64,000 bases of DNA, from the NCBI GenBank assembly GCA_937941455.1, contig CALDHM010000027.1:1-64000 (forward strand). Direction: 5' to 3'. Below, piece by piece: positions 3,117 to 57,549 of this stretch (position 1 is the stretch's first letter; each line of letters starts with the position of its first letter). The stretch is from an uncultured Pirellulaceae bacterium. Lineage in GTDB: Bacteria > Planctomycetota > Planctomycetia > Pirellulales > Pirellulaceae. The notes beneath the pieces were generated by a model. It had not been told where the DNA came from and searched no databases. It was given only the letters and a program-made list of their open reading frames with translations. The position numbers and the translations under genes were made by a program.

Positions 3117-4139
3117 CTATGGAGAATCCCAGCCATGCGCCTCGCGAACTTGGAGCATCAATTTCAAGATAGTGCGCCAAGTCTCAGGCTTCATCAGCGT
3201 CGCGTTGGAGAACATGCAGCCGTCCCAGCAGATATGTTGAATTCCCCGCGCGGCGGCATCACGCAGCCAGTATCCTGCGGCGGCCACTACATCCAGTTTT
3301 CCGTTGGGATCGTCCGCCGGGCAGTGGCGACCTGTTTTGTCATGGGAACCGGAACCGTGGACGGTGCCGTCATTTTGGGCCACATGAAAATCAATGGTCC
3401 AGGGGCGTAAGGCGTCAGTCATTTGCCGGTAGGCGGCATCGAACTCGGCCGGGGAGTATCCGGGTTGGAGCAGCGCGTGCTCGGGGGAATTGTAGCCGAG
3501 CAAATACAAGTACGTGTGGGCCAAATCGGCTTGAAAACCCAAGGTCTCGGGCATGTTGACCATTTGGAGGAGCGTTAACATATCTTTCCAGCTGTGCATG
3601 CCGCCCCAGCAAATTTCCCCTTCCGCAGCTAGTCGTTCTCCATAGGACCTGGCGACACTCGCGGCTCGGCGAAACGTCTCCGCGATTTGTTGTTGATTGG
3701 CCACGGGATCCTGCGACCATGCCGCGGGGCTGCAAGCCGAGTCGATGCGGATCACGCCGTAGCGGCGCACGCCATGCTCGCGGAACTTGGCGCCGATTCG
3801 CGCGGCTTTCTCCACGGCCTCGACAAATTTTTCTCGTTTGATCGGCTCGCCCATCGCGGAGCCTTCGAACCAAATCGGGGCGACGAGGCTGCCGACTGCA
3901 AACCCATAGCTCGCGATTTTGTCGGCGAGACGCCGCAGGTCATCGTCGCCGATTTCGATATTGATGTGAGGGTCGTAGAGGAATAAATCGACACCATCGA
4001 ACTTTTGCCCATCGACTTCGGCCTCGGCGGTCAGTCTCAGCATGGTGTCGAGATCGATAGCGGGTTCCTCGGCTCCGGGGCCCTTGCCCACCAAGCCGGG
4101 CCACATCGCGTTATGCAATTTGGGGTATGCGCGGGTCAT
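3117..4139 (-). CDS. Sugar phosphate isomerase/epimerase-like TIM-barrel protein
   Basis: 340 residues, cytoplasmic by lack of a signal peptide. The sequence has the order typical of the xylose isomerase-like TIM barrel family (AP endonuclease 2 / IolE-like): an acidic metal ligand region near [21 protein letters not shown], a DFHVAQNDG strand with a probable metal-binding His, and a C-terminal ICWDGCMF strand. Such proteins interconvert sugars, inosose or keto-sugars using a divalent metal. The next gene in the same direction (upstream) is a phosphomannose-isomerase-like cupin about 115 bases away, so the two may be co-transcribed and work on the same sugar. Substrate cannot be told from sequence. 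Confidence 0.75.
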
Positions 4140-4253
4140 CGAAAATTCCTTGTTGGTAGTAAAGGTTTTGACATTGGTGACGCGGCGGGCTAAAGCCTAT
4201 CCCAAAAACGCGAGCGCTCGCGAGCTAACACTTCGGGTCGCGGCCGCCGACGG

Positions 4254-5519
4254 TCATGAGACAGGCTCGTCTTGCTCCCGGCGATGGTCACCCACGTTGG
4301 GCAGCTCCGCGAAGACGTCCGGCCCGAAGTAGCGCAGGCCGACAAGGGGCTCGGCGCCAGTATTCGTTATCGTTACGCCGCGGGTCGCCGCTTCGTAAGT
4401 GATGAACACTTCGTCATCGGTCGTTTCACCGAAGCGGATCAAGGTCGGCGTTTGCAGCGGCAGTTCGCCGATGCGGCCGGTGCCCGAAACGGTGATCCAG
4501 CCGCTGGCGCCAGGGTCTTGTAGTCGGCAACTCGCCCCGGGAGCCACGGTCAATTCCTTCGCACTGAACAATTGTCGGCCGTTGACGCGACCGTAGACTA
4601 CCCAGCGATCGACCCAACCAGGGCCTTGATCGGCGACGATCGGTTCGAGATAGTTGTTCGCCTTGAAGTGCGGATCGACGTTCTTATCCCAGTCCAATTG
4701 CCCGATGATAAAATCCAGATCTTGGTGCTTGTCGGCCGGCATGTCTTTGGTGAGGAGCGACCAGGGAACGTAGCGTCCCTCGACAATATTTTGAAACATG
4801 GCGAAGACATCGCTTCCCCACTGAGGCTCGTAGGTGCACAACGATCCCGGGGCATGCAGCACGCCAGGCGGGATCAACCAGCCGGTTCCACGTTGCAGTT
4901 TGTAAGCCTTGGAAAGTTCCAAAATCTGGTTGTCCCCCCGTCCCCAATTTTCCAGGCAGCGGCGGATGTCGCTCTTCTGGGTCCCAGGCTCGAGTCCCAT
5001 GAAGGTGAATGGAAAATGATTGTCGCAGTTGTTGTACTGCGGCGGGAAGTAGTAGGCCTCGGGTTTTCCTTCTTGACCGACTAGTCCAGCATCTGCGTCG
5101 CTCTGATGCATGTGGTGGGGAATCGGGCCGAGGTTATCAAAAAATTTCGAATAGACCGGCCACCGCCGGTACCGCTCCCACATCGCCGTGCCGATCAAGC
5201 GGGGCCCACTCTCGGCGACAGCGTCTCGAAGCAGGAACGCTTGGTCCTCGAAGCGGCAGAAGCTTAACCCTTCGTGCCATTGGCGATTTTCATTGGCGGC
5301 TTCTGTGGTGCTGGCGAACCATCGCTCATCGATTCCGCCCCGTTTCGTCCCAAGCGCGTAATAGTCCTCCGGGTGCAAGCGAATCCGTTTGCCGGGATGC
5401 AAAAAGCTGCGCGGCACCCAGGTGGGGGTCAGCCGCAGAATTCCCTCGCCTGCTTCCAGAGCCAAATCCAGAACCTTGGCCACGCGTTCCGTAATTTTCA
5501 ACGAAGAGGTCTGTTTCAT
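4254..5519 (-). CDS. Phosphomannose isomerase-like cupin protein
   Basis: 421 residues without signal peptide. The middle part contains His-rich, metal-site-like strands (PHHMHQSD, DNHFPFTFMG, GWLIPPGVLHAPGSLCTYEP) typical of class I mannose-6-phosphate isomerase-like cupins, where two His, one Glu and another His hold zinc. The C-terminal part (about 320-410: GWVDRWVVYGRVNGRQLFSAKELTV..., written in short) looks like a second beta-barrel. Family members isomerise keto- and aldo-sugars, though planctomycete homologues are poorly characterised. It sits upstream of a TIM-barrel isomerase on the same strand and is divergent to a DUF4432 mutarotase-like gene. Function beyond a cupin sugar isomerase-like protein is inference. 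Confidence 0.6.
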   Translation of the reverse strand: MKQTSSLKITERVAKVLDLALEAGEGILRLTPTWVPRSFLHPGKRIRLHPEDYYALGTKRGGIDERWFASTTEAANENRQWHEGLSFCRFEDQAFLLRDAVAESGPRLIGTAMWERYRRWPVYSKFFDNLGPIPHHMHQSDADAGLVGQEGKPEAYYFPPQYNNCDNHFPFTFMGLEPGTQKSDIRRCLENWGRGDNQILELSKAYKLQRGTGWLIPPGVLHAPGSLCTYEPQWGSDVFAMFQNIVEGRYVPWSLLTKDMPADKHQDLDFIIGQLDWDKNVDPHFKANNYLEPIVADQGPGWVDRWVVYGRVNGRQLFSAKELTVAPGASCRLQDPGASGWITVSGTGRIGELPLQTPTLIRFGETTDDEVFITYEAATRGVTITNTGAEPLVGLRYFGPDVFAELPNVGDHRREQDEPVS

Positions 5520-20102: not shown

Positions 20103-20929
20103 CGCTACGCCCTTTGGAGAGACGGGGTCCTTGCGACCCCCACCCGGGGCCGCGTTGTTGGAGTCAATGTGCAAGGCTTGTGCCAATTGCGCTGGATAGT
20201 GAAATGGCGGATGATGAGTCGAAATAAGGGGGGGAGTGAGGAAAAATTAGCGAGTGCGGTTCCTGGTGTTGTGCAAGGCTTCGCCATATCTCAGTTCAAT
20301 GACTTGCCGAACGGCAACAGCCAGGGTTTAACTTGCGAAAATCCGGGCTATTTCACTCGTCGGCGAACAAAGGGCCGCGCCGAGCGTTAGGCTTGAAGCA
20401 CCACGAGCGAGGCGATCGAGTTGCGGCTGCGGATTGGCCATCAAGAAAAATGCCTCGCTCGCCCTACCGAGATGCGATGCGCGCCATCGATTTGTGAACA
20501 GCCGTCATCAAAGTCGCGACGGACTCGGATATTTCACCCAATCGATCTGGAATTTCCATTGTCAAAGCCGCGATGCCGAAGCTGGTTCTTGTGCCGAGTT
20601 AAGTCCAGGATTTGGGCGGTTGCGGGCCGACTGCAGTAATTCGAGTGGGCGGAAAGCCTTCGTCGAACTAGAGTCCATCACAAAATTGTCAATCGCCGTA
20701 ATCCGAAGCGCAAGGGAGGTCACGTTCGATGACCGATCGCGCGCATCGTACTGAGGTGGAAAAGTGGCAGGCAGCCGGAAGCGTAAGCGAGGGCACCTGT
20801 TGGGATAGGCTCTTCGTCGCGGCGTTTGCGGCGCTGTCGGCTCCGCGGTCCTACTGCACTAGCAGCACCTGGTGCAAAAGGTCACAATGAAGCGGGACAT
20901 AGGTCGGTTCTATCACCAGGAGTCATTGC
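20103..20929. other. Long intergenic region, possibly with gene remnants
   Basis: 827 bases with no gene I can support. On the minus strand two short coherent pieces occur: a 31-codon frame at about 20488-20583 reading MEIPDRLGEISESVATLM... and a 36-codon frame starting MANPQPQLDRLARG. Their order and lack of ribosome binding sites suggest remnants or chance. No tRNA, CRISPR or terminator seen. Confidence 0.3.
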
Positions 20930-39594: not shown

Positions 39595-39669
39595 GAGCGC
39601 ACGCTTTCCAATCAACTAGGGGTTTACGGAGTGGGCGAGCGGAAGCCCGAATCGACTAATTTGCCTGGG

Positions 39670-39768
39670 CTTTGTACCAAAACTCGTCAGCCGCAGGGCA
39701 CACTAGACCTCGGTTCTCGCGAAAACCGTACGCTAACGCATACAGGCTAATCGTTTGGGGACAAAGCC
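39670..39768. repeat. MITE-like dispersed repeat (copy A)
   Basis: About 99 bases whose ends form an inverted repeat: GGCTTTGTACCAAAAC on the left and GTTTGGGGACAAAGCC on the right match at 14 of 16 positions when inverted. A central imperfect palindrome (CCGTACGCTAACGCATACAGG) lies inside. It aligns end to end with copy B at 48389-48484 and partly with copy C at 2890-2988. No target site duplication is obvious. No coding sequence fits inside. It sits between rpmA and the divergent/unknown secreted gene. Confidence 0.72.
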
Positions 39769-39785
39769 GTAAAAACACCTCGATT

Positions 39786-48326: not shown

Positions 48327-48388
48327 CGCTAAATCTCGCATTGTGGTAATAGTGTCAAAACTCCAAGTCATCAGAGTTCGCGCCCTCG

Positions 48389-48484
48389 ACTTTGTGCCAA
48401 AACTGGTCAACCGCATGGCGCTACTCCGCAGTTCGCGAGAACCGGTCGCCAACGCGTTCCGGTCAATCGTTTGGGGACAACGCC
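48389..48484. repeat. MITE-like dispersed repeat (copy B) inside an operon
   Basis: About 96 bases aligning end to end with copy A at 39670-39768, including both ends (ACTTTGTGCCAAAAC and GTTTGGGGACAACGCC), which are inverted relative to each other at about 12 of 16 positions, and a central palindrome ACCGG...CCGGT. It fills the gap between the PPC-domain gene and the DUF1549/1553 gene; its right edge touches the last base of the PPC gene's stop codon. Confidence 0.7.
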
Positions 48485-50976
48485 TAGTCATGAGTGCCAT
48501 TTCCTCCGGAATTTTTGGCTCGTTGCCTTAATTGTTCGAGCCGAGATAGCGGCGCGGGTGGAGGCGGCGCCGCAGGAGTCTCAGCAGCTGCAGGAGCCGG
48601 CGCGGGTGTTGCCTCAACGGGGGCCGGTGGGGGCTTGCTGACCTGCAACTCCGTCCGCCCGGTATTGATGATGATTTCTTCGTCAGCAATCGGGAGGTAG
48701 ACCTGACAGAACAGCGATTTGTGCGCGCCGATCGGAGTTTCAGCCGTTGTTGGCAACGAGATCACGAGCTCCGTTGTGTCTTTCGTCAGTTTGATGGGCT
48801 CGGCGCTCACGTGCGGCGGTAGTCCGATGATCTGCAACCGCGCTTCGCCCTCGAAGGGCGTTACCTGCTCGATAGCGGCGACGAGTTGTGCCGTTTGGCC
48901 TTGGTCGCAACCCGCTCTGGGTATTTCGATTTTCACATACGGTTCGGCAATCACCAGTTCGGCCAATTGGCTGGACACCCACAACGGGCCGCCATCGACA
49001 TCCGCATAGCCGATAACGTAGATCGGCCAGGTCCCAAGCTGAGCACTGCCGTTGGCATTCAACGGGTAGACGATTTCGGATTGCTCGGGAGGACAGGTGA
49101 TTTGATTCGTGCGACCAACCCCAGGTGGCACAAAGGGAAATTGAATATGCACTGGCGCGGTGAAACCCTCGTCGCGCCTTACGGCGATTTTGACGTTGTA
49201 GATTCCGTCGCGGACCAGCGGTGCCTTGGGGGCGATGATTTCGAGGCGGAAGGGGGCTGCTTCAGTGACGGCGATGGCCAGACGATCGACCGTGCAGCCG
49301 TAGTACAGTGCATTGTTCGGCTCACCAAGGGCAAAGTCTGCCAGGTTCGTAAAGCGGCCGATCAAGGATTGATTTTCGCCAAGGAGTTGAGCGCGGAAGT
49401 CCACGAGTGAGCCTTGCAGTTCCGCCTCGGGGCTGGCCTCGAAGACCACGGGCATGGAACTCAAATTCGCCAGCATCGGGTAGGCGGTCATAGCGACGCC
49501 CGGCGGTAGATTTTCTTCGATCAGTTTGAGTTCGCCCCCGATATTTTCCCGGGTGGCGTTGATCAAGGTGCCAAACCGATTTCCGCGCGGGACGCAGATC
49601 GTCTGTCGCAACTGGCTATAACGGTCGACACGGGGAATCGAGATGCTGAGTGCGGGGGTCACGGCATTGATCTCCAAGCGATAGACGAAATCGTCTCGCC
49701 CACGTCGCAAGTGATCGTAAATTCGCACATAGTAGTCGCCGTCCTCCGGGACTTGGAATCGCAGGTAAGCGTCGGGACCGCGCGAATCGTCGTTTCCTAC
49801 CAGGTGGCTTTTGTCGGAAGCCTTGAAAATGTTCATCACGGGATCCAGTCCTGAACCGATCCGCCGCGCGAAACACTCGAATTCCCAAACTTGTCCCTGT
49901 TTGGCCGTGAACAAGTAATAATCGAATTCGTTTGGTTGGCTGACAACGCCGTTGATTGCGACCGGGAGTTCGAGTTTCGGCTCGCTAACCCAAGTATTGT
50001 TTCCCGAAGTTTCCAAGTGATTGGGGAGGTCGTTCAATCGGAACGGGATTGCCGAAGGGACCGTTCCAGCAACCGTTTCGAGTGACAAACCAGGGCGAAA
50101 CCCAAGCGCGGCGGGGGTCTGCAACCGCAACGGCAAGGCCCCCCCCGCATCGCCGAGCAGCGTCACGTCCAACTCTTGGCCCAGCGGACCTCCTGCCGGA
50201 AAAATCGCGGTCGGCCGTGGAAAATTTCCGACATGCAACAGATAACGACAATTGCCGTTCCCGCCGTAGGAGGCTTCGCGAATCATGATCGTGTACACGC
50301 CATCGGCGGGAGCGACAATCGAGACGAAGGGGTCTTGGTTGAACATGGTCGTGTCGTCGCAAACGGCTAGTTCGAAACGGTCTTCGTTCAGGATCGCGAT
50401 TGAAGCGTCGAACAAGAATCCGAGGCGAATCGCGTGGACCTCGACCGAGATCCGTTCACCTTGTTTTGCCTGCACGGCGAAGTAATCAACATCTTCGTTG
50501 TCGATCGTACCACGTACGGTTACATTCGGCTCGATTGCTTGCGGTTGGGAGATCGTGGAATTCGGTTCGACTTCATCGACGTGGGGAAGATGTCCGATGA
50601 AGACGGTTCGAAAATCCGAAATGCCCCGCGGCGTGCGGACCTGCAGAACATGTTCTCCCAGTCGGCAATCGTTGGCGATATCGACGACGACGTCGACTTG
50701 ATTGGCGTCGACAGGCTTGATCTCGATGACTGAGATGCCCGCGTCGTAGCACAAGATCTGTTGCGCGTTACCGATTCGTTCGCCGATAAACCGCAGGGTA
50801 TGTTGCTGACCACGCTGAACACCGCGTGGCAAAATCAAGTTCAACCGCGGCGTGTTCGCCCAGACCAGACTCACATCACCCAGCAAGACCAACCAGCCTG
50901 CGACGATTGACAATAGCAGGGCCAGTCGCGACCGTTCGGTCGCCAGCCGCTTGGCAGTTCCAAGATGAGCGTTCAT
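48484..50976 (-). CDS. Exported protein with PPC (pre-peptidase C-terminal) domains
   Basis: 830 residues from ATG 50976; an ATG 18 codons upstream is possible but less like a signal start. A signal/membrane stretch (LALLLSIVAGWLVLLGDVSLVWA) is at about 18-40. Two PPC-type beta domains are visible: VDYFAVQAKQGERISVEVHAIRLG (about 145-168) and FDYYLFTAKQGQVWEFECFARRIGSG (about 345-370), each followed by a DYYVRIYDH or MIREASYGG-like loop. The rest is beta-rich and ends in a Pro/Ala linker and a short helix. PPC domains help fold or anchor extracellular proteins. It is second of four genes in a minus-strand operon, between a DUF1501 and a DUF1549/1553 gene. Confidence 0.82.
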   Translation of the reverse strand: MNAHLGTAKRLATERSRLALLLSIVAGWLVLLGDVSLVWANTPRLNLILPRGVQRGQQHTLRFIGERIGNAQQILCYDAGISVIEIKPVDANQVDVVVDIANDCRLGEHVLQVRTPRGISDFRTVFIGHLPHVDEVEPNSTISQPQAIEPNVTVRGTIDNEDVDYFAVQAKQGERISVEVHAIRLGFLFDASIAILNEDRFELAVCDDTTMFNQDPFVSIVAPADGVYTIMIREASYGGNGNCRYLLHVGNFPRPTAIFPAGGPLGQELDVTLLGDAGGALPLRLQTPAALGFRPGLSLETVAGTVPSAIPFRLNDLPNHLETSGNNTWVSEPKLELPVAINGVVSQPNEFDYYLFTAKQGQVWEFECFARRIGSGLDPVMNIFKASDKSHLVGNDDSRGPDAYLRFQVPEDGDYYVRIYDHLRRGRDDFVYRLEINAVTPALSISIPRVDRYSQLRQTICVPRGNRFGTLINATRENIGGELKLIEENLPPGVAMTAYPMLANLSSMPVVFEASPEAELQGSLVDFRAQLLGENQSLIGRFTNLADFALGEPNNALYYGCTVDRLAIAVTEAAPFRLEIIAPKAPLVRDGIYNVKIAVRRDEGFTAPVHIQFPFVPPGVGRTNQITCPPEQSEIVYPLNANGSAQLGTWPIYVIGYADVDGGPLWVSSQLAELVIAEPYVKIEIPRAGCDQGQTAQLVAAIEQVTPFEGEARLQIIGLPPHVSAEPIKLTKDTTELVISLPTTAETPIGAHKSLFCQVYLPIADEEIIINTGRTELQVSKPPPAPVEATPAPAPAAAETPAAPPPPAPLSRLEQLRQRAKNSGGNGTHD

Positions 50977-51090
50977 AGGGAATCCACGGGAAAACAGAAA
51001 AGCTCGCAGCACGACGAGCAGCCCCCGCATCGCCCGCGAACTGAGATCGCCTCGGGACGAGGCGCAGGAGCTGCGCAGAATTGATCCCGA

Positions 51091-56371: not shown

Positions 56372-57361
56372 ATGAAAACGCGATCGTTCGCTGGAATTCG
56401 AGATGTTTCCGAAGTCGGTTTGGGGACCTGGCAACTCGGTGGAACCGAGTGGGGCGATGTCCCCGATGAGGCAGCCCTAGATATCCTTCATCGCGCGGCG
56501 GACTGCGGAGTAACGTTCATCGATACCGCAGATATTTACGGCCAAGGACGTAGCGAATCCTTAATCGGCCGGTTCCTCAAGTCACGTACCGATGCCGACC
56601 GTTTTTTCATCGCCACCAAATTAGGTCGCGGGAAAACACCGGGATGGCCTGCCAATTTCGAGCCTCCTGCCATTCGCCGGCATGTCGAGGACTCCTTGCG
56701 ACGATTGGGGGTCGAGACCATCGACTTGATCCAAACGCATTGCATTCCGCCGGCGGTCACCAGGGAGAACTCGTTTTGGGAGCCGCTTCGTCAACTGCAG
56801 CGAGCAGGGAAAATCAGGGCCTTCGGCGCATCGGTCGAATCTGCTGCCGAAGCGATCGATTGCCTGAAGATCGAGGGGCTAGTTTCGCTGCAAATCATTT
56901 TCAATATCTTCCGGCAGCGTCCCATCGAGGCATTCTTTGATGTGACGAAACGCCAACAAGTCGCGCTGATCGTCCGCCTTCCCTTGGCCAGCGGCCTGCT
57001 CAGCGGCCGGATGCAGTCGGACACTCGCTTTGCCGCGACAGACCACCGCTCGTTCAATCGCGACGGTCAAGCGTTCAACGTGGGCGAGACCTTCGCGGGG
57101 CTGCCGTTTGAAAAAGGGATCGAGCTGGTCGACCAGCTGCGGCCCTTGGTGCCTCCGGGCGTCGCGATGGCGACATGGGCCTTGCGCTGGTGTCTGGATT
57201 TCGATGCCGTTACCACGGTGATTCCCGGCGCAACTCGCGCCGACCAGGTCGTCAGCAATGCCCAAGCCAGCGAGCTACCTCCGCTGACGCAAGAAACCCA
57301 TCAACTGCTAAAGCAGTTTTATCTCGACAAGGTCCATCCGCTGATCCGCGGCGTGTATTAG
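56372..57361 (+). CDS. Aldo/keto reductase
   Basis: 329 residues from ATG 56372, where GLGTWQLGGTEWGDV follows within 25 residues. The TIM-barrel features are FIDTADIYGQGRSE with the catalytic Tyr-containing loop, FIATKLGRGKTPG (active-site Lys), DLIQTHCIP (active-site His) and a C-terminal VTTVIPGATRADQVVSNAQAS that binds NADPH phosphate. AKR enzymes reduce aldehydes and ketones. The start is one base after the MBL hydrolase stop. The substrate is unknown. Confidence 0.87.
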   Translation: MKTRSFAGIRDVSEVGLGTWQLGGTEWGDVPDEAALDILHRAADCGVTFIDTADIYGQGRSESLIGRFLKSRTDADRFFIATKLGRGKTPGWPANFEPPAIRRHVEDSLRRLGVETIDLIQTHCIPPAVTRENSFWEPLRQLQRAGKIRAFGASVESAAEAIDCLKIEGLVSLQIIFNIFRQRPIEAFFDVTKRQQVALIVRLPLASGLLSGRMQSDTRFAATDHRSFNRDGQAFNVGETFAGLPFEKGIELVDQLRPLVPPGVAMATWALRWCLDFDAVTTVIPGATRADQVVSNAQASELPPLTQETHQLLKQFYLDKVHPLIRGVY

Positions 57362-57549
57362 CCTTTGTTCCAATCCCCCACGGCCTCCGCAATCCAGCGG
57401 GCGCAGCGAATGAGCCCGCGGTTCCCGTAAAAACGGTGTAGTAATAGTTCCGGCTGTTCAATGGGGAGCAAGCTCTTTTCGGGCAGCGACGGTTTCGGTC
57501 GATGCTGCCAGATTTCGTTGGTTGAAAGTAGCGAGCGTAGCCATCGTCA
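57358..57549 (-). pseudogene. Fragment of a coding frame after an in-frame TGA
   Basis: On the minus strand, 62 codons after a TGA (57549-57547) read RWLRSLLSTNEIWQHRPK, then SLPEKSLLPIEQPELLLHRF and GNRGLIRCARWIAEAVGDWN, ending in TAA at 57360-57358, which overlaps the aldo/keto reductase stop. Before the TGA the same frame gives TFSKLRSPERGRFREPTDW. The composition is protein-like but there is no start codon or ribosome binding site. It looks like the tail of a broken gene. No family recognised. Confidence 0.35.

Follow-up and report, generated by a model that had tools for sequence, protein, structure and literature searches.

The 64,000-bp stretch of contig CALDHM010000027.1 analysed here (the window), from an uncultured Pirellulaceae bacterium, carries a repeat of about 100 bp with inverted ends, and the locus raises the question of what kind of element this is and how it came to be multiplied. 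A reading of the sequence alone had offered two answers, a numerous non-autonomous element of the MITE kind or a REP-like repeat. The genome of origin (G000, Pirellulales) is a 4.04 Mb assembly, 96% complete. The copies in the window, with the parts of the best-preserved one, are:

39665-39771, + strand: copy A, full-length element of the 105-bp type
39666-39683, + strand: left arm of copy A, IS5-type terminal inverted repeat, its TA changed to TG
39687-39750 (bounds approximate), + strand: REPIN core of copy A, a pair of unequal REP hairpins (TCAGCCG.. and ..GGCTAA) in inverted orientation
39753-39771, + strand: right arm of copy A, IS5-type terminal inverted repeat, its terminal CTAG changed to CGTA
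48385-48487, + strand: copy B, its terminal CTAG overlapping a gene stop
2878-2988, + strand: copy C, degenerate, left arm unrecognisable, right arm at 2972-2987
57360-57472, + strand: copy D, weak remnant (E 1e-3), absent from the list of the sequence-only reading

The three stretches originally recognised (A, B and C) are real repeats, copy C keeping the core and the right end with about 16 additional bases ahead of the right arm. For copy A the start, given as 39670, was two bases late: the left end GGCTTTGTACCAAAAC begins at 39668 and pairs with the right end GTTTGGGGACAAAGCC (39753-39768) at 14 of 16 positions, the figure first reported. The 12 of 16 end positions kept in copy B were likewise confirmed. 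With up to 3 mismatches the 16-base end has 6 matches in the window; the expectation is 0.74, and no shuffle out of 100 gave as many. Copies A, B and C account for five of the matches, and the sixth (58174) lies outside them. Copy A is situated between the gene for ribosomal protein L27 (PF01016, 1e-34), beyond which lies an Obg GTPase gene, and a gene for a 435-aa product, both neighbours being on the minus strand. The corresponding L27 spacer carried the element in none of four genomes of the same genus, and divergence between these spacers is too great for the insertion point to be located. At the right end of copy B, CTAG (48484-48487) overlaps the TAG stop of a minus-strand gene for 848 aa (48484-51030); such ends can provide a stop codon where the element lands in a gene.

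Searching the whole of G000 gave at least 40 well-matching places (the best 40 of 105, and again the best 40 of 202, first-look candidates). A 17-base end pattern with up to 2 mismatches occurs at 192 sites, the reversed pattern at 4, and the matches extend beyond the ends, so that the genome-wide excess anticipated in the sequence-only reading was found. A profile of 30 copies was scanned over twenty 20-kb stretches, taken at round coordinates from ten larger contigs, and over the window; at E < 2e-3 it detected 26 copies in the 400 kb sampled and 4 in the window, while the best E was 0.8 in the controls, for which sample and window were shuffled in 2-base blocks or reversed. If the sample is fair, the density of about 65 per Mb corresponds to an estimated 260 or so diverged copies in 4.04 Mb. 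Relative to genes predicted with a home-made caller, which called 79% of 464 kb coding, 25 of the 30 copies are intergenic and the other five intrude by 2-4 bases at the edge of a gene; no copy is internal to one. The occupied spacers include co-directional, divergent and convergent ones.

The 105-bp consensus reads CTAGGCTTTGTGCCAAAAC-TCG-[TCAGCCGCAGGGCGCTAGCCCGCGGTT]-CTCGCGAA-[AACCGGACGCTAACGCGTTCCGGCTAA]-TC-GTTTGGGGACAAAGCCTAG. Its outer parts, CTAGGCTTTGTGCCAAAAC and GTTTGGGGACAAAGCCTAG, are inverted repeats. The inner TCAGCCGCAGGGCGCTAGCCCGCGGTT and AACCGGACGCTAACGCGTTCCGGCTAA are hairpins in inverted orientation, the arrangement that defines a REPIN, and their stems are unlike, which makes the core a REP-like heterodimer; the description as REP-like therefore holds for the core, a REP doublet. 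The arms of the window genome are GGCTTTGTGCCAAAAC and GGCTTTGTCCCCAAAC, and the arm seen in the phylum is GGCTTTGTNYCAAAAC. Matches to the consensus occur in 18 of 60 genomes searched (G000 included). Outside G000, among the matches listed, they cover mostly positions 20-88, with a few reaching 7, 9, 14, 91, 93 or 98, and thus lie in the core, which indicates that core and arms are separate modules; the same core was found without these arms in other genomes.

The origin of the arms is indicated by a 951-bp unit in a Phycisphaerales genome (L357, positions 4052-5002), which has perfect 17-base arms and TA at each end (C-TA..TA-A). Its first product belongs to DUF4096 (PF13340, 2e-26) and its second frame, located after an A7 run, to DDE_Tnp_1 (5e-14), with 134 bits against the NCBIfam IS5 family model (cut-off 110). 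The consensus arms of G000 agree with its terminal repeats at 16 of 18 bases, a link to the window genome that consists of the 18-base arms only and involves a single autonomous copy in another class (Phycisphaerae). When the L357 IS was compared with three MITE consensus sequences, the arms were common to all and the remaining matches were weak, of 9-13 bases. A transposase with matching ends, which had been proposed as a check on the MITE idea, therefore exists in another class, but G000 has no relative of it at E 1e-5. Nor were close relatives present in the 12 arm-bearing genomes searched (two of them, G057 and G065, apparently being a single assembly); the only matches there were 37% in G001, 38% in G064 and 28% in G063, in IS copies whose arms differ. 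Related IS5-type units occur in G001, in four copies whose ends were read in L381 and L384, and in G064 (L382); they share the layout of the L357 unit, with TAGG.. ends in YTAR, and have other arm sequences.

In the public genome collection the exact 18-base arm was found in 95 stretches, 93 of them from Planctomycetota. The other two are single exact arms, in L286 (SAR202) and L294 (an Alcaligenaceae MAG), that may be due to chance or binning error. The arm pattern exceeded its control in G047 (30 vs 0), G057 (5 vs 0), G001 (6 vs 1) and G020 (3 vs 1), was at control level in most other genomes searched, and had no match in viral contigs. Pairs of arms within 1 kb number 67, in 65 of the 95 stretches, and 30 stretches have no pair. 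Outside L353-L367, the solo arms of 20 out of 31 stretches, and L311 with its pair spanning 3259 bp, were followed inwards over as much as 3 kb. Of these 21, 9 show a mutated partner at a distance of 78-160 bp, 12 lack one even with 3 mismatches allowed, and a gene-sized partner is absent from all. Single perfect 18-base arms with the partner absent within 3 kb occur in L301, L304, L335 and L350, some of them, by eye, a short way ahead of what may be a start codon.

TA is present at both ends in 59 of the 67 arm pairs, the search pattern itself having required TA at one of the two ends. A pyrimidine precedes the left TA in 64 pairs, and a purine follows the right TA in 62. TA is the target-site duplication typical of the IS5 group in question. 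The target-site duplications looked for in addition were not there: nothing longer than the bounding TA was detected in 52 full copies (200 shuffles per setting), and the left and right terminal bases of these copies do not co-vary. As no exact empty site was recovered either, a duplicated TA is indistinguishable from a TA belonging to the element. An IS630/Tc1-mariner partner was considered because the CTAG/TA sites recall IS630, whose CTAG preference is the subject of a title in the reference list of PMC2170065. It was rejected, DDE_3 (PF13358) being unmatched in 7 of 12 genomes, including G000, and no matching arm pair being present at 13 loci elsewhere.

Six or more types of interior are found between these arms across Planctomycetota. 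Among 50 short arm pairs (first 80 of the 95 stretches), 63-157 bp in length, the interiors differ by species. In the genomes where the arm pattern was enriched, the palindromes between the arms include AAGCCTGAAGCGCAAGCGAAGG or ACAAGCACGAAGCG in G047, GTAGCGGAAGTCGTCAAGACTTTCG in G001 and others elsewhere. The interiors of G000, M_MetaBat.57 (TGAGCCGC..GCTAGC), G051 and G047 (like the L150 unit) are tied to RAYT-type REPs; inverted repeats are also present in those of Dive96_bin4.48, SJ86 and a Rhodopirellula MAG. The spacer between arm and REPIN in M_MetaBat.57 differs from that in G000, and at least two captures of this REPIN type are therefore likely. One M_MetaBat.57 unit (L292, 28-180) is 153 bp long, its arms, spacers and REPIN forming one long palindrome, and its sister copies measure 134-139 bp. 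Conversely, a second arm family, near GGACTYGTYCGCAAATAA, encloses the same core, worn in some cases, in G001, G032, G033 and G027, which represent four genera. With up to 5 mismatches allowed per arm, the GGACTYGTYCGCAAATAA search gave 8 distinct units (L064, L066, L071, L078, L083, L231, L238 and L239) at 20 loci, of which 5 have no pair and 7 repeat one of these units; a transposase belonging to this arm family was not found. As arms elsewhere hold other palindromes and the core occurs in a second arm type, the element is to be read as a MITE whose ends are of IS5 type and whose filler is a REPIN.

The relatives of the core lead to a different kind of transposase. A RAYT profile was made from eight transposases of other genomes, most of them beside REP hairpins; NHxH is found in all eight and Y----Q in seven as aligned (absent in L153). 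Two proteins of the group that were tested matched Pfam Y1_Tnp and, in NCBIfam, reached sub-cut-off scores only, with IS200 and REP transposase models. At E 1e-10 the profile detected members in 27 of 60 genomes and none in G000. In L208 (G055) a RAYT gene is flanked left and right by doublets of TCAGCCGGAACGCGCTAGCGTCCGGTT and TCAGCCGACGGGCGCTAGCCCACGGTT, without arms and with one base different in one copy, and these correspond to the two halves of the window-type core at 25/27 and 24/27 positions. In L207 (G023) there is one half-unit on each side of the RAYT gene, and among 30 RAYT loci examined related units are also present at L180, L181, L182, L186, L190 and L209. The unit pattern was unmatched at eight of these 30 (L184, L187, L188, L192, L198, L202, L204 and L205), and L184 (identical with the L150 locus) has a different palindrome, AGCCCGAAGCGCAAGCGAGTGAAT, on its flanks. 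Direct tandem repetition was observed in L189 (G017:C20:85327-88797), where a RAYT gene lies within an array of 21 REP units in 2.4 kb at about 94-bp spacing, most with a CTGA foot, and L209 (G015) has a denser array in which two REP types alternate.

Within G000, profiles of the two REP half-units gave 13 and 18 matches inside elements and none outside (reversed control, 2 and 12 matches, best E 0.7); as these are all the half-units recovered across 30 copies, worn free units could escape. In four other genomes the numbers of REP units inside and outside arm pairs, biased because the stretches were picked for containing an arm, were 49 and 21 in Dive96_bin4.48 (14 of the 21 beside a single arm), 23 and 7 in SJ86, 11 and 0 in M_MetaBat.57, and 4 and 5 in IP29b_bin.16 (all 5 beside a single arm). 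The sole Y1 (IS200-like) transposase match of G000 (G000:C22:3841-4188; L089, L107) is interrupted by a stop codon, and the 1.5 kb read around it contained no element copies.

Thirty aligned G000 copies have a mean identity of 87.8% to the consensus and 78.8% to each other; 29 of them were drawn from the 30 places with the best scores, so that divergence in the complete set must be greater. The 25 copies of Dive96_bin4.48 have 95.6% and 91.9%, respectively. Base pairing in the G000 copies is at the shuffled level (arms, 0.831 observed vs 0.836; inner stems, 0.850 vs 0.852), which fits the expectation for neutral decay. The element thus looks dead in G000, having there neither an L357-type transposase nor a RAYT of the group, with even the better copies 12% off the consensus and pairing no better than in shuffled sequences.

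Taken together, the repeat is most likely a non-autonomous MITE with IS5-type ends enclosing a REPIN, moved in trans by an IS5-type transposase and now decaying. Such an enzyme would recognise the arms and transfer the unit, presumably by cut-and-paste, into TA dinucleotides in YTAR context. What lies between the arms is a REPIN of the type found beside RAYT (HUH tyrosine transposase) genes in Pirellulales and not an IS remnant. At some time an arm pair would have come to enclose this REPIN, perhaps through RAYT-made insertion between two nearby arms or through template switching between palindromes, and the chimera would then have been amplified to the roughly 260 mostly intergenic copies. 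Neither transposase is now detectable in G000, and the copies are decaying.

It is improbable that the whole 105-bp unit is instead a large REPIN of the TIRtron type, moved by a RAYT, its arms being the outer part of a double palindrome recognised in single-stranded form. Such an origin would suit a core that is a REPIN of RAYT type, the want of target duplication beyond TA and the strong fold of the consensus (z -6.4 and -6.7 for the two strands), and PMC3733652 reports RAYT genes flanked by long inverted repeats as well as REPs joined to unrelated hairpins. However, the arms enclose unrelated interiors in other species, bound an IS5 gene and finish at TA in YTAR, and the core occurs without them. 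Moreover, 38 loci of group RAYTs (some of them duplicated places) showed no arm pair, the arm matches there being two single ones with 3 mismatches and two single ones with 4.

The same strong fold, the absence of copies from the interior of predicted genes (0/30) and the folding of copy A (z -2.4 and -3.2) would also be expected of a structured RNA or a regulatory hairpin under selection, such as a terminator or mRNA stabiliser, yet this is very unlikely here: copy B folds little above chance (z -0.6 and -0.9), the consensus fold of the 30 copies amounts to -0.22 kcal/mol, doubly changed paired cells number 1 and 3 and pairing equals that of shuffled copies, every spacer orientation is used, and the window has no Rfam family at gathering score. 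Chance likeness or an assembly artefact, which the few and diverged copies of the window by itself might suggest, is refuted by the counts (192 end sites vs 4; 26 profile matches per 400 kb vs a best control E of 0.8), and its probability is negligible.

With the MITE-REPIN chimera as the preferred reading, the frequency of palindromic interiors is more likely explained by such repeats simply being common intergenic DNA, though a hairpin may help. It is conceivable, if doubtful, that the pairing is no accident and that MITEs of planctomycete IS5-type elements are built time and again around REPINs or other palindromes that serve a need of a minimal element. The palindrome would then supply a hairpin that aligns the ends, an HUH-made single-stranded intermediate, or new arm pairs through RAYT cutting and joining, and two unrelated transposases would serve one and the same element.

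Like IS5-family MITEs, the element is short, has IS5-type terminal inverted repeats (those of L357) and many intergenic copies, and lies at TA/YTAR sites; it differs in that its interior is a REPIN and not the result of internal deletion of the L357 IS, and it has no autonomous partner in the same genome. With class 3 REPIN/RAYT systems, as described in PMC6006769, it shares inverted REP hairpins, adjacent transposases in other genomes with Y----Q (7/8) and a bias towards planctomycetes. The foot is CnGA in that source, in contrast to GTCA and ATTA in the G000 consensus, and in G000, unlike there, the REPIN was found only within IS5-type arms, no RAYT of the group being found. According to PMC3733652, REPs are combined with unrelated hairpins in repeats of P. 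putida and P. fluorescens that run to hundreds of copies; these repeats, and TIRtrons, resemble the present element in joining REP units to unrelated inverted repeats. In those the composite flanks a RAYT gene, whereas here the outer repeats match the ends of a DDE-type IS and the palindromes vary by species. The CGTC-tagged REPs of the same source are similar in that the left-half consensus is preceded by CGTC(A), but the tag is variable here (CATC, CGTA and others), and the 8-9 bp stem starting with A-T given there is not that of G000.

What is new is a recurrent MITE-REPIN chimera in several planctomycete species, in which both initial guesses, MITE and REP-like, are right: the arms are IS5-type terminal repeats of a numerous non-autonomous element and the core is a REP doublet. 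Among the open-licence papers listed, titles and abstract openings mention neither a REPIN inside an IS5-type MITE nor this planctomycete family. One small element joins DDE-type MITEs and RAYT/REPIN systems, fields usually kept separate, and joins of this sort recur in a number of species within a single phylum, involving different palindromes and two arm families or more. The interiors of bacterial MITEs are usually taken as decayed IS sequence, and their origin becomes testable with such elements. A defined family is also now available for an abundant kind of intergenic repeat in planctomycete genomes.

Last, the window contains a further repeat-like sequence, ACGCGGCGGGCTAAAGCCTATCCCAA (4180-4205), with an inverted partner at 20800-20825 that is 77% complementary. 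Adjoining this partner is AGCCGGAAGCGTAAGCGAGGG (20771-20825 region), which resembles a further REP type.
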